From the NCBI RefSeq assembly GCF_028010285.1, contig NZ_CP116304.1, forward strand, positions 4,914,501 to 4,978,500: a stretch of DNA of 64,000 nt, read 5' to 3'. Shown here piece by piece: positions 60,644 to 64,000 of the stretch (the stretch's first letter is position 1; each line of letters starts with the position of its first letter). Under the pieces are notes generated by a model that saw only the letters and a list, made by a program, of their open reading frames with translations, searched no databases and was not told the origin of the DNA. The DNA is from Pseudomonas sp. Q1-7. GTDB lineage: Bacteria > Pseudomonadota > Gammaproteobacteria > Pseudomonadales > Pseudomonadaceae. The translations under genes were made by a program, and so were the position numbers.

Positions 60644-61018
60644 GGGGCCGATTAGGATTCGACGCCGGTAACAAAACTCTAGGGGCATGCCGAGCTGGTA
60701 GCAGACCTCGTAAATTAGCTGCTGCAAACTATTAGTTGCCAACGACGACAACTACGGGGCGGCCCTCGCGGCCTAACCCTTCTGGCGGCTTCGGCTGCCA
60801 GCAGTCATGAGGGGATGCCTGTAAACCCGAAATGACTGTCAGATAGAACAGGATCGCCGCCAAGTTCGCTGTAGACGTAACGGCTAAAACTTATACAGCT
60901 CGCTCTGAGCACCCTGCCAGTCGGGCCGCAAAGAGCTAACTCAGTAGACTTGGCTAAGCATGTAGTCCCGAAAGCGGAGAGCTGGCGGACGGGGGTTCAA
61001 ATCCCCCCGGCTCCACCA
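60644..61018 (+). ncRNA. ssrA: tmRNA (SsrA)
   Basis: 375 nt. Rescues stalled ribosomes with SmpB. 5' GGGGCCGATTAGGATTCGAC and 3' GTTCAAATCCCCCCGGCTCCACCA form the tRNA-like acceptor and T arm. The tag frame 60738-60776 reads ANDDNYGAALAA-stop. Pseudoknot-rich middle. Start taken at the acceptor stem; the primary transcript probably starts upstream. Its 3' end is the insertion site of the element that follows. Confidence 0.96.
60991..61018 (+). other. Probable attachment site (attL) in ssrA 3' end
   Basis: The last 28 bases of tmRNA, T arm through CCA, are the usual target of P4-type integrases, and an integrase gene starts 186 bases downstream. The matching right-hand copy would lie beyond the window, so the core length cannot be fixed. 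Confidence 0.6.
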
Positions 61019-61029
61019 AATAATCATCT

Positions 61030-61055: not shown

Positions 61056-61131
61056 GTGCCTGAAACCCAGTAAATACGAGGCCTACAGCGTCATCACGAT
61101 CCGATAGCGTCCAGCGGGATCCATGAGATTC

Positions 61132-61201
61132 GGTATTCCAAGTGGTATTCCAAGCCATCCGCTGGTAATTTTTGGAATACCGAAACCGTTCTTGGAATAC
61201 C
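61132..61201. repeat. Four GGTATTCCAA decamers before the integrase
   Basis: GGTATTCCAA at 61132-61141 and 61144-61153, and its inverse TTGGAATACC at 61172-61181 and 61192-61201. Two direct copies face two inverted copies just before the integrase ATG. Likely integrase arm-binding or autoregulatory sites. Confidence 0.75.
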
Positions 61202-61203
61202 CC

Positions 61204-62460
61204 ATGTGCGCCCAAGCCACCCGCCTCTCGGACCTCAAGGTCAAAGCCGCCAAGCCTCAAGAGAAGGACTATGTCCTGAGCGATGGTGACGGCCTGCAGA
61301 TGCGAGTGAGAAGCAATGGCTCCAAGCTCTGGAACTTCAACTACCGGCACCCGGTGACGAAGAACCGGATCAACATGGGCCTCGGGACCTTCCCCGAAGT
61401 TTCATTGGCGCAAGCCCGCAAGCGCACTGTTGAGGCACGTGAGCTCCTCGCCCACGGTATCGATCCCAAAGAGAAACGGGACGCCGTGCAGCAAGCCAAG
61501 AAAGCAGCGACTGAACACACCTTCCAGAATGTGGCGACGTCTTGGTATGAGCTGAAAAAGGATGCGGTTACACAAGCCTACGCCGAGGACATCTGGCGCT
61601 CCCTCACGCTGCACGTCTTCCCCGACTTGGGCACCACTCCGATCTCCGCCATCAACGCTCCCAAGGTCATCAACCTGCTCCGGCCACTTGAAACCAAGGG
61701 CAGCCTGGAAACCGTTAAACGGCTGACACAGCGACTCAACGAGATCATGACCTACGGGGTCAACTCGGGGCTGATTCATGCGAACCCGCTCAGCGGGATT
61801 CGCTCCGTTTTCAAGAAGCCAAAGAAAAAGAACATGGCGGCGCTCCCCCCCGATGAGCTGAAAGAGCTCATGGTGGCGATCGCCAATGCCAGCATCAAAA
61901 GAACAACTCGTTGCCTGATCGAATGGCAGCTTCACACCATGACTCGGCCAGCCGAGGCAGCAACTGCTCGCTGGGCGGACATCGACATCGAGAAGAAGAC
62001 CTGGACGATTCCCGCTGAACGCATGAAGAAACGCCGTACTCATATCGTCCCGCTCACGGAACAGGCTCTCGCGCTCCTGGAGGCGATCAAGCCCTACAGT
62101 GGACACCGGGAATATGTGTTCCCTGCAGACCGGAACCCACGCACCCACTGCAATAGTCAGACCGCCAACATGGCGCTAAAACGCATGGGCTTCGAAGGGC
62201 GCCTGGTCAGCCACGGCATGCGCTCGATGGCAAGCACCATCCTCAACGAGCATGGCTGGGATCCAGAATTGATTGAGGTGGCGCTTGCCCACGTAGATAA
62301 AGACGAAGTCCGTAGCGCCTACAACCGGGCGGACTACATCGAGCGCAGACGGCCGATGATGAGTTGGTGGAGCGAGCACATTCAGGAGGCAGCTACTGGC
62401 AACCTGTCGGTGTCAGCTATCAAAGAGAATCGGGATAGAAAAGTCGTTTCGATACGCTGA
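61204..62460 (+). CDS. int: P4-type tyrosine integrase
   Basis: 418 aa from ATG 61204. N-terminal DUF4102 arm-binding domain (RLSDLKVKAAKPQEKDYVLSDGDGLQMRV), SAM-like core-binding domain about 110-190, catalytic domain with Arg in QLHTMTRPAEAATARWADID, the His-x-x-Arg block RLVSHGMRSMASTILNEHG, His in LAHVDKDEVRSAYNRADY and the nucleophile Tyr in that last segment. Upstream in-frame starts would run through the GGTATTCCAA repeats and are less likely. Mediates integration at ssrA. Confidence 0.93.
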   Translation: MCAQATRLSDLKVKAAKPQEKDYVLSDGDGLQMRVRSNGSKLWNFNYRHPVTKNRINMGLGTFPEVSLAQARKRTVEARELLAHGIDPKEKRDAVQQAKKAATEHTFQNVATSWYELKKDAVTQAYAEDIWRSLTLHVFPDLGTTPISAINAPKVINLLRPLETKGSLETVKRLTQRLNEIMTYGVNSGLIHANPLSGIRSVFKKPKKKNMAALPPDELKELMVAIANASIKRTTRCLIEWQLHTMTRPAEAATARWADIDIEKKTWTIPAERMKKRRTHIVPLTEQALALLEAIKPYSGHREYVFPADRNPRTHCNSQTANMALKRMGFEGRLVSHGMRSMASTILNEHGWDPELIEVALAHVDKDEVRSAYNRADYIERRRPMMSWWSEHIQEAATGNLSVSAIKENRDRKVVSIR

Positions 62461-62560: not shown

Positions 62561-63073
62561 CTAGCCCCTGGCCGGCATCAATGCCCAGTGGATAACGCGA
62601 GTAAGCGACACTGTCCATAACCCAAGCCCGGCACATCCCTTGGAACGGCCAACAATTAGCATCAACAGGGCATCGGTATTCAGCTTGGAGCCCGAGAGAA
62701 TCTTGCGCATGGCAGCATCATCTAGATTGGACGCACCGGGTCGATCTTCGGCGTGCGTGTGCCACTCCCCCAGGTAGATCAGCCCCCTCTCACTTTGCTG
62801 TTCAATTGCCCGCTGAGCTGCTGCGGGATCAGACCGGTAGCGGTATCGACTACGTTCATCTCCAGGATATGGCCCCGAGGCAGCAAGGACATGCACCCTA
62901 TCTGGCAAAATAGTCCCGAATAGCTGTCCGCCAGCCTCCTTTGCCCACATTGCAGCCTGGCGATGGCTGCGGACATGGTCGAGCACCACGGGGGTTATCA
63001 AGATATCTTGACCCACGCCCTCTAATCGCCCCAGAACACCACCAGCAGCACCATCCTCTCGAAGCCCACTCAC
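62561..63073 (-). CDS. JAB/JAMM (Mov34/MPN) metalloprotease, Cap3-like
   Basis: 170 aa from GTG 63073, whose GTGA overlaps the E1 stop by four bases; GTG 63076 is next best. JAMM zinc motif is complete: upstream Glu in KEAGGQLFG, then EWHTHAEDRPGASNLD, i.e. HxH-x7-S-x2-D. Such proteins cleave ubiquitin-like conjugates; in type II CBASS, Cap3 removes cGAS-like enzyme conjugates made by Cap2. Length and partner fit Cap3. Other bacterial ubiquitin-like operons carry similar JAB proteins, so the name is provisional. Confidence 0.85.
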   Translation of the reverse strand: MSGLREDGAAGGVLGRLEGVGQDILITPVVLDHVRSHRQAAMWAKEAGGQLFGTILPDRVHVLAASGPYPGDERSRYRYRSDPAAAQRAIEQQSERGLIYLGEWHTHAEDRPGASNLDDAAMRKILSGSKLNTDALLMLIVGRSKGCAGLGLWTVSLTRVIHWALMPARG

Positions 63074-64000
63074 CACGCGTACTCTTGAACAGTATTGGCC
63101 TTGTCGAAAGCCGCTCTGAGCGTGCCCCCTAGGGGCTCTACACGCTCCCGGCTTCCCATCCAGACTCTTCGGCAGGAGTTCGGGACTCGCCCCAATAAAG
63201 CGTCCAAGGCCAGCCCTGCAGCCATGCCAATTGTAGGATGCAGATCCACAGCACCATGCGGCTGGAAAACATTCCCACATCCTGCCTCGACGACGATCGC
63301 CCCCGATTCATCCGGCCAGTCAGTGAGCCGAAAAGACGGGCGTTCATCAACGTCGAATTGAGACATTAGCCTTTCAGGACCGTATAGCAACACAGCATGC
63401 CCAGCCATCGCGTAGGCCTCCGCCCAGGCACTCAAGTATGCAGGGGGACAGGGCAGTGAAGCGCGCCACGCATCGAGAGCCGCCTCGCCCTCCAAATCGA
63501 GACCTGCGGCAATGATCAGATCCGCATCTGCGATTCTGGCTAAGTGCTGAACTGGAAGCCGCTCAAAGCGAGATGGATACGCGTGGTCGAATGTCAAATG
63601 AGGAAACTTGCGAGCCAAAGCCCTGGCGAGTCCTGTCACTTTGTCAACACGCAGGCTATCTACTCCAAGAAAATGGCGAGACGCATTGGCCGAGTGAATC
63701 TCATCACCATCCACAAATATCAGCTCACCCACCCCCGCCTGGGCAAGAAGATTGGCAACGGCCGATCCAATAGCGCCGCACCCCACCACCACCACCCGCC
63801 GGCGGTTGAGCTCAAGGAAGTCCGAAGAATGGTCCCGGCCATGTATCCAGGGTCCATCCACTCTATTAACCACGACACGTTCGATGGCACGCCCCTTGAA
63901 CCACCCTCTGATGCGGTCACCCGGCACATGTGTGATGTTACGAAACCCTCTTGTGAGAGCATCTATAGCCCCGCTCTTGTAGATAACGGCCACAAAGGCG
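63070..64000 (-). CDS. E1-like ThiF adenylyltransferase, Cap2-like, 5' end outside window
   Basis: About 310 C-terminal residues; the frame stays open to the edge, so the start and any N-terminal E2-like domain lie beyond base 64000 (a GTG at 63993 is not required). Linker with RVDGPWIHGRD, then the ThiF Rossmann loop VVVVGCGAIGSAVANLLAQAGVG, FVDGDEIHSANASRHFLG with Asn/Arg, and DSLRVDKVTGLA with Lys, the ATP site residues of E1 enzymes. A later EAGCGNVFQPHGAVDLHP block holds Cys (codon 63277-63279) as the likely catalytic thioester residue. Coupled to the downstream JAB gene. Best match in architecture is Cap2 of type II CBASS. Confidence 0.82.
   Translation of the reverse strand, partial: AFVAVIYKSGAIDALTRGFRNITHVPGDRIRGWFKGRAIERVVVNRVDGPWIHGRDHSSDFLELNRRRVVVVGCGAIGSAVANLLAQAGVGELIFVDGDEIHSANASRHFLGVDSLRVDKVTGLARALARKFPHLTFDHAYPSRFERLPVQHLARIADADLIIAAGLDLEGEAALDAWRASLPCPPAYLSAWAEAYAMAGHAVLLYGPERLMSQFDVDERPSFRLTDWPDESGAIVVEAGCGNVFQPHGAVDLHPTIGMAAGLALDALLGRVPNSCRRVWMGSRERVEPLGGTLRAAFDKANTVQEYAW

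Follow-up and report, generated by a model that had tools for sequence, protein, structure and literature searches.

A complete type II CBASS operon, capV–CD-NTase–cap2–cap3, is almost certainly carried as cargo by a genomic island in ssrA of Pseudomonas sp. Q1-7. The genes and their order, the open frames, the catalytic residues, the glycine at the end of the cyclase, and the relatedness of Cap2 were obtained directly, and the operon is a divergent example of a well-described kind of system. The analysis began from the window, a stretch of 64,000 nucleotides (bases 4914501-4978500 of a single-contig genome of 5,780,855 bases), whose right end cuts through cap2. Coordinates above 64000 are counted on past the window end, using DNA from the same genome. 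The sequence-only reading of the window had proposed a defence operon like type II CBASS from its last two frames; cap2, cap3, the cyclase and capV are all found. The features are as follows.

60644..61018, plus strand: tmRNA gene (ssrA), the integration site, intact (ARAGORN; tag ANDDNYGAALAA)
61003..61020, plus strand: left attachment repeat, 18 bp, at the tmRNA 3' end (exact 18-base match)
61123..62460, plus strand: tyrosine integrase, 445 aa (Phage_integrase 107, Arm-DNA-bind_3 88, Phage_int_M 83 bits)
62561..63073, minus strand: cap3 (JAB/JAMM isopeptidase), 170 aa (Prok-JAB and PADLOC JAB; GTG start overlaps the cap2 stop)
63070..64761, minus strand: cap2 (fused E2-E1), 563 aa (Prok-E2_B and ThiF; in-window part 63070..64000)
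64762-65808, minus strand: CD-NTase, 348 aa, ending GGGRFG (PF21654, PADLOC cyclase)
65821-66924, minus strand: capV patatin lipase, 367 aa (PF01734, PADLOC phospholipase)
91670-91687, outside the window: right attachment repeat, 18 bp (exact 18-base match)

Gene content and catalytic residues of the operon

Read 5' to 3' on the minus strand, the order is capV, CD-NTase, cap2, and cap3, with the CD-NTase directly upstream of cap2 and capV 12 bases further upstream on the same strand. This order and spacing suggest that the four genes form one transcription unit; a simple scan of 601 bases upstream of capV found no promoter-like site. All four proteins exceed their Pfam cut-offs and have strong PADLOC scores.

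The in-window frame of cap2 (63070-63993) is open and continues past the window end, and its ThiF domain scores 62 bits (PF00899, cut-off 28.1). The full-length protein, encoded in one frame, combines a Prok-E2_B domain (PF14461, 34.0 bits, cut-off 25.4) with ThiF (60.5 bits), as had been expected of an E2 domain fused upstream, to the right of base 64000. The PADLOC E1-E2 model gives 359 bits for the in-window part and 560 bits for the full protein; the former, together with the 234 bits of the PADLOC JAB model for Cap3, means that the matches are not due to chance. The ATP loop of the E1 domain, GCGAIG, is intact, as was read from the window, and GxGxxG is present in all 18 rows of one alignment. 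The Cys of the EAGCGN block, proposed earlier as catalytic, is Cys495 of the full protein, in a column where 60 of the 61 distinct rows, all but L089, have Cys, and the catalytic Cys of the E2 domain is Cys93, in a column with Cys in 59 of the 61 rows and gaps in the other two. In addition, the in-window linker carries RVDGPWIHGR, which had been singled out as a possible mark of a subgroup; the corresponding pattern, R.D..W.HGR, does mark relatives: 32 of the 46 loci from the scan with the Cap2 alignment described below carry it.

The stop codon of cap2 (TGA, 63072-63070) lies within the GTGA at 63073-63070 where the JAB frame begins; this frame runs to 62561. The overlap and the JAB assignment of the sequence-only reading are confirmed. 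Cap3 matches Prok-JAB (PF14464, 32.3 bits, cut-off 25) and PADLOC JAB (PDLC00888, 234 bits), and its JAMM motif is likewise complete, HTHAEDRPGASNLD, with the full HxH...SxxD. The HxH..SxxD pattern recurs in each of the 22 loci with a Cap3 match among the 46. The one-chain cap2_3 of 6A-MBL (NF058523) was rejected as a model, with 56.7 of 320 bits; Cap2 and Cap3 are two genes here.

The third gene encodes the DncV-like nucleotidyltransferase predicted to lie to the right of base 64000 (DncV-like_NTFase, PF21654, 82.1 bits, cut-off 24.9; PADLOC cyclase, 489 bits). Residues G58, S59, D72, D74, D76, and D135, which we take to be the catalytic nucleotidyltransferase positions, do not vary across the 11 aligned rows. 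Among solved chains, 7ljo is the closest (57.9 bits as a single sequence; 119 bits and ranked first with a profile), and the single-sequence search gives 35 bits against the cyclic AMP-GMP synthase 4u0n, presumably DncV. The chain 7ljo is BfCdnB, described as making mainly 3'3'-cGA (PMC10442399). The 'lid 3' Asp of BfCdnB discussed in the same source appears to fall opposite a Ser/Asn stretch of the Q1-7 cyclase, and because the alignment there is uncertain the nucleotide product is not predicted from it. The cyclase ends in GGGRFG, its final residue being Gly, in agreement with the Gly or Ala reported as the last residue from 1,583 cyclases encoded with Cap2 and Cap3 (PMC10097602). A terminal Gly or Ala is also found in 38 of 40 cyclases of the 46-locus set (exceptions L086 and L090) and in eight of nine of an earlier locus set (exception L045).

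The effector, which had also been sought to the right of base 64000, is a patatin-like protein (PF01734, 86.5 bits, cut-off 27.7; PADLOC phospholipase, 314 bits) that matches solved CBASS/CapV phospholipases with E values of 1.4e-26 to 3.8e-20. The best of these, 9kh7, is named a CBASS cGAMP-activated phospholipase (E 1.4e-26). Judged from its sequence, the patatin gene fits the role of the predicted cyclic-nucleotide-activated effector of type II CBASS. Three of the proteins stay below curated NCBIfam cut-offs, i.e., the cyclase against cGAS NF041078 (123.5 of 150), CapV against NF041079 (189.6 of 200), and Cap3 against NF050170 (68.2 of 200); the cGAMP product in those family names is therefore unsupported, and cGAMP is not assigned.

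CxxC pairs of Cap2 and alternative readings

Two CxxC pairs, one internal and one C-terminal, are absent from the Cap2 of the operon. CxxC pairs of this sort bind zinc in MoeB, and those of Cap2 probably form a structural zinc site by analogy. Across the Cap2 alignment (65 rows, reduced to 61 distinct rows by leaving out the duplicates L057, L077, L088, and L094), both pairs are present in 38 rows, neither in 21, and one only in two, i.e., the pairs come and go together. In a tree of 59 rows, from which the Cap2 fragments L046 and L086 were also left out and which was midpoint-rooted for drawing only, the Cap2 of the operon falls into an eight-row clade with L039 (identical in sequence to L057), L056, and L058-L062; the clade has a support of 100/100, and its branch is long, at 1.24 changes per column. 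This clade is fair support for the divergent subgroup suggested by the sequence-only reading. The whole clade is without both CxxC pairs, and since the loss is common to it and extends to 21 of 61 rows, it is tolerated over long times.

The absence of the pairs, together with the divergence under the NCBIfam cut-offs, could point to an operon that is intact in sequence and yet non-working or working differently, for example with the zinc site of Cap2 lost or with the cyclase answering another cue. We consider this unlikely, because none of the four frames is interrupted, the catalytic columns are conserved, and the loss of the pairs is the common property of a well-supported clade.

Far less probable is a Bil-type or other ubiquitin-like conjugation operon with separate E2, E1, and JAB genes, even though all three kinds of enzyme are present. 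Bil operons have separate E2 and E1 genes together with a ubiquitin-like protein, whereas here E2 and E1 are on one chain, the partner gene is the CD-NTase, and capV adjoins; moreover, neighbouring genes of the four either overlap or are separated by 0-12 bases, which leaves no room for a further gene between them.

That the island carries a metabolic E1 (ThiF, MoeB, or cysteine synthesis with JAB) is less credible still: single-sequence matches to MccB, MoeB, and ThiF (with MccB, MoeB, and UBA5 ranking above Cap2 among solved structures) and weak matches to the NCBIfam ThiF and MoeB models point that way, but these models reach only 43.7 of 159 and 43 of 266 bits, far under their cut-offs, the 18-row Cap2 profile places solved Cap2 chains first (7to3 at 87.1 bits, 7tsq, and 7tsx) and MccB (64.5 bits), MoeB (61.1 bits), and ThiF (56.1 bits) below all of them, and the adjoining genes encode a cyclase and a lipase. 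The 20 Pfam-scanned proteins to the right, which are part of the frames of the island, include no ThiS/MoaD or sulfurtransferase family and none of thiamine, molybdopterin, or cysteine synthesis, the signs that the sequence-only reading had named as contrary to its proposal.

The ssrA island and the relatives of the operon

The type II CBASS operon adjoins the island integrase, which comes after the intact tmRNA gene. A second copy of the 18-base repeat from the tmRNA 3' end lies at 91670-91687, which gives the island a length of about 30.7 kb. Among 17 other genomes from the genus, eight have an empty site, the right-flank DNA lying within 7 bases of the tmRNA match; the flank match spans about 300 bases in G070, G122, and G141 and 63-80 bases in G011, G040, G052, G062, and G086. 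Since it never exceeds about 300 of the 1413 query bases, the DNA further right differs in those genomes. The right flank is separated from the tmRNA gene by 39 kb in G078, 77 kb in G108, and 13 kb in G127, with matches of 290, 80, and 50 bases, respectively. This looks as though other islands occupied ssrA, which may be an integration hot spot, the matches being short in two of the three; the remaining six of the 17 genomes gave no informative flank match. The integrase, the repeats at both ends, and the empty site in relatives bear out the mobile-element setting that had been read from the window.

Elsewhere in the genome, a 158-base stretch (G000:C1:969874-970031) matches a portion of the integrase gene at 91% identity. 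The island has further cargo. A SIR2 protein of 1203 aa (85982-89593, plus strand) has a SIR2_2 domain near its N-terminus and matches the ThsA-like PADLOC model with 108.8 bits; it is possibly a second anti-phage gene of the same island. An MmeI-like type IIG restriction-modification enzyme of 861 aa (77873-80458, minus strand; PADLOC, 905.6 bits) is followed just downstream, on the same strand, by a helicase gene and a T5orf172 gene, the latter presumably encoding a GIY-YIG-type protein. What the ssrA island contributes is a complete type II CBASS operon of a divergent sort, alongside other genes with an apparent role in defence.

A scan of genome contigs with the Cap2 alignment gave 46 loci, in eight of which all four genes share a strand and follow the order seen here (L056, L057, L058, L060, L061, L062, L064, and L088). 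The loci L056-L062, from beta- or gammaproteobacteria or unclassified Pseudomonadota, have Cap2 proteins 56 to 37% identical to that of the operon. Six of these seven share its four-gene order, the contig of L059 being without DNA for the cyclase, and five share the cyclase tail GGGRFG (L056, L057, L058, L060, and L061). L062, with the tail RRFG, is unlike the operon in being without the R.D..W.HGR pattern. Of nine loci in the earlier set without a match to the cyclase of the operon, four were scanned (L040, L041, L043, and L047; L046, L049, L052, L054, and L055 were outside the scan), and another PADLOC cyclase stands beside Cap2 in all four.

In a search of 398 genomes of the same family, 14, with Q1-7 among them, matched at E 1e-20 or below; the best of the others is 33% identical, and the genus gave no match in its 17 further genomes. 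At E 1e-30, PADLOC model PDLC00836 matched five of 369 genomes sampled across the class and 13 of 398 sampled across the phylum, each count including Q1-7 itself, and none of 14 control genomes. Among plasmids, 142 records match, all below 60% identity; the phages searched have no Cap2 match, and the E. coli genomes have no cap2-cyclase DNA match. Exact peptide patterns taken from the single protein, used to look for close relatives, gave 34 candidate stretches, none of which was confirmed.

A separate observation concerns Cap3. In 24 of the 46 loci (among L065-L097, mostly alphaproteobacterial) Cap2 occurs without a Cap3 match, and none appeared in the locus DNA even when a profile built from 39 Cap3 sequences, with L048 excluded from the seeds, was run at E up to 1. 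At least 650 bases are available downstream of Cap2 in 23 of the 24; L068, with only 99, cannot be judged. A loose JAMM-like pattern is present in frames of four (L070, L077, L085, and L097), without a match to the Cap3 profile. CapV and cyclase matches are present in 22 of the 24 (as fragments in L086), L071 having neither and L087 being without CapV, and GGGRHA ends 16 of 23 cyclases of these loci. Two of the 24, L065 and L094, have identical Cap2 proteins. In the tree, 21 of the 22 rows from such loci fall into one group of 22 (support 100/100), in which L064 keeps Cap3; L087 lies outside. Most named members of this group are, we presume, Alphaproteobacteria. The group and the Cap2 clade of the operon are together among 38 rows (95/94), in a tree that does not establish a sister relation between them.

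In a library of open-access papers, searched by a few set phrases, no description of operons without Cap3 was found; the phrase 'absence of Cap3' has a single occurrence among the papers listed, in PMC11153139. We tentatively suggest, as a possibility that is somewhat doubtful, that the wider Cap2 group has split into mechanistic variants undescribed in that literature: the beta/gamma clade of the Q1-7 operon, whose E1 has lost the paired CxxC (probable structural zinc) site, and a related, mostly alphaproteobacterial clade with capV-cyclase-cap2 and no Cap3. If so, conjugation of the cyclase in the latter clade would be one-way or reversed by another enzyme. The comparative value of these lineages is that Cap2 proteins without CxxC pairs and operons without detected Cap3 are natural tests, bearing on the need for the probable zinc site and for deconjugation.

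Proposed mechanism and comparison with known systems

In studied type II systems, Cap2 forms a thioester with the C-terminal Gly of the cyclase, the cyclase is then conjugated to targets, and Cap3 undoes the conjugation (PMC10097602, PMC11153139). By analogy to such relatives, each biochemical step of the Q1-7 operon, including the nucleotide product and conjugation, and its function in anti-phage defence may be proposed as follows. The E1 domain of Cap2 would prime the cyclase by adenylating its C-terminal glycine, and the cyclase would be passed via thioesters, on Cys495 and then on Cys93 of the E2 domain, onto a target lysine; Cap3 would cleave the cyclase-target bond again. Phage infection would activate the CD-NTase to make a cyclic oligonucleotide, which would turn on the CapV patatin lipase, and the lipase would degrade the cell's own membrane and so stop the infection.

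The best-scoring solved structures for the Cap2 profile, 7to3, 7tsq, and 7tsx, are of what we take to be Enterobacter cloacae Cap2, and the alignment covers the linker and the adenylation core (profile positions 276-435), whereas the E2 part and the region of the E1 Cys do not align. Type II CBASS with CapV is known from V. cholerae, where the gene order is capV-dncV-cap2-cap3. The Q1-7 operon has the four kinds of gene in common with that system and with the one of E. coli TW11681 (PMC10097602), as well as a cyclase ending in Gly, a fused E2-E1 Cap2, and a separate JAB Cap3. It differs from them in its cyclase, which is closer to 7ljo than to 4u0n, and in having cGAS, CapV, and Cap3 matches below the NCBIfam cut-offs. 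For the B. cereus type II CBASS, the main text of PMC11153139 has no occurrence of CapV, and the cyclase tail is KPGGFA, ending in Ala, in contrast to GGGRFG, ending in Gly, in Q1-7. Both systems have the E2 and E1 catalytic Cys residues and a Cap3, which in B. cereus reverses the conjugation (PMC11153139).
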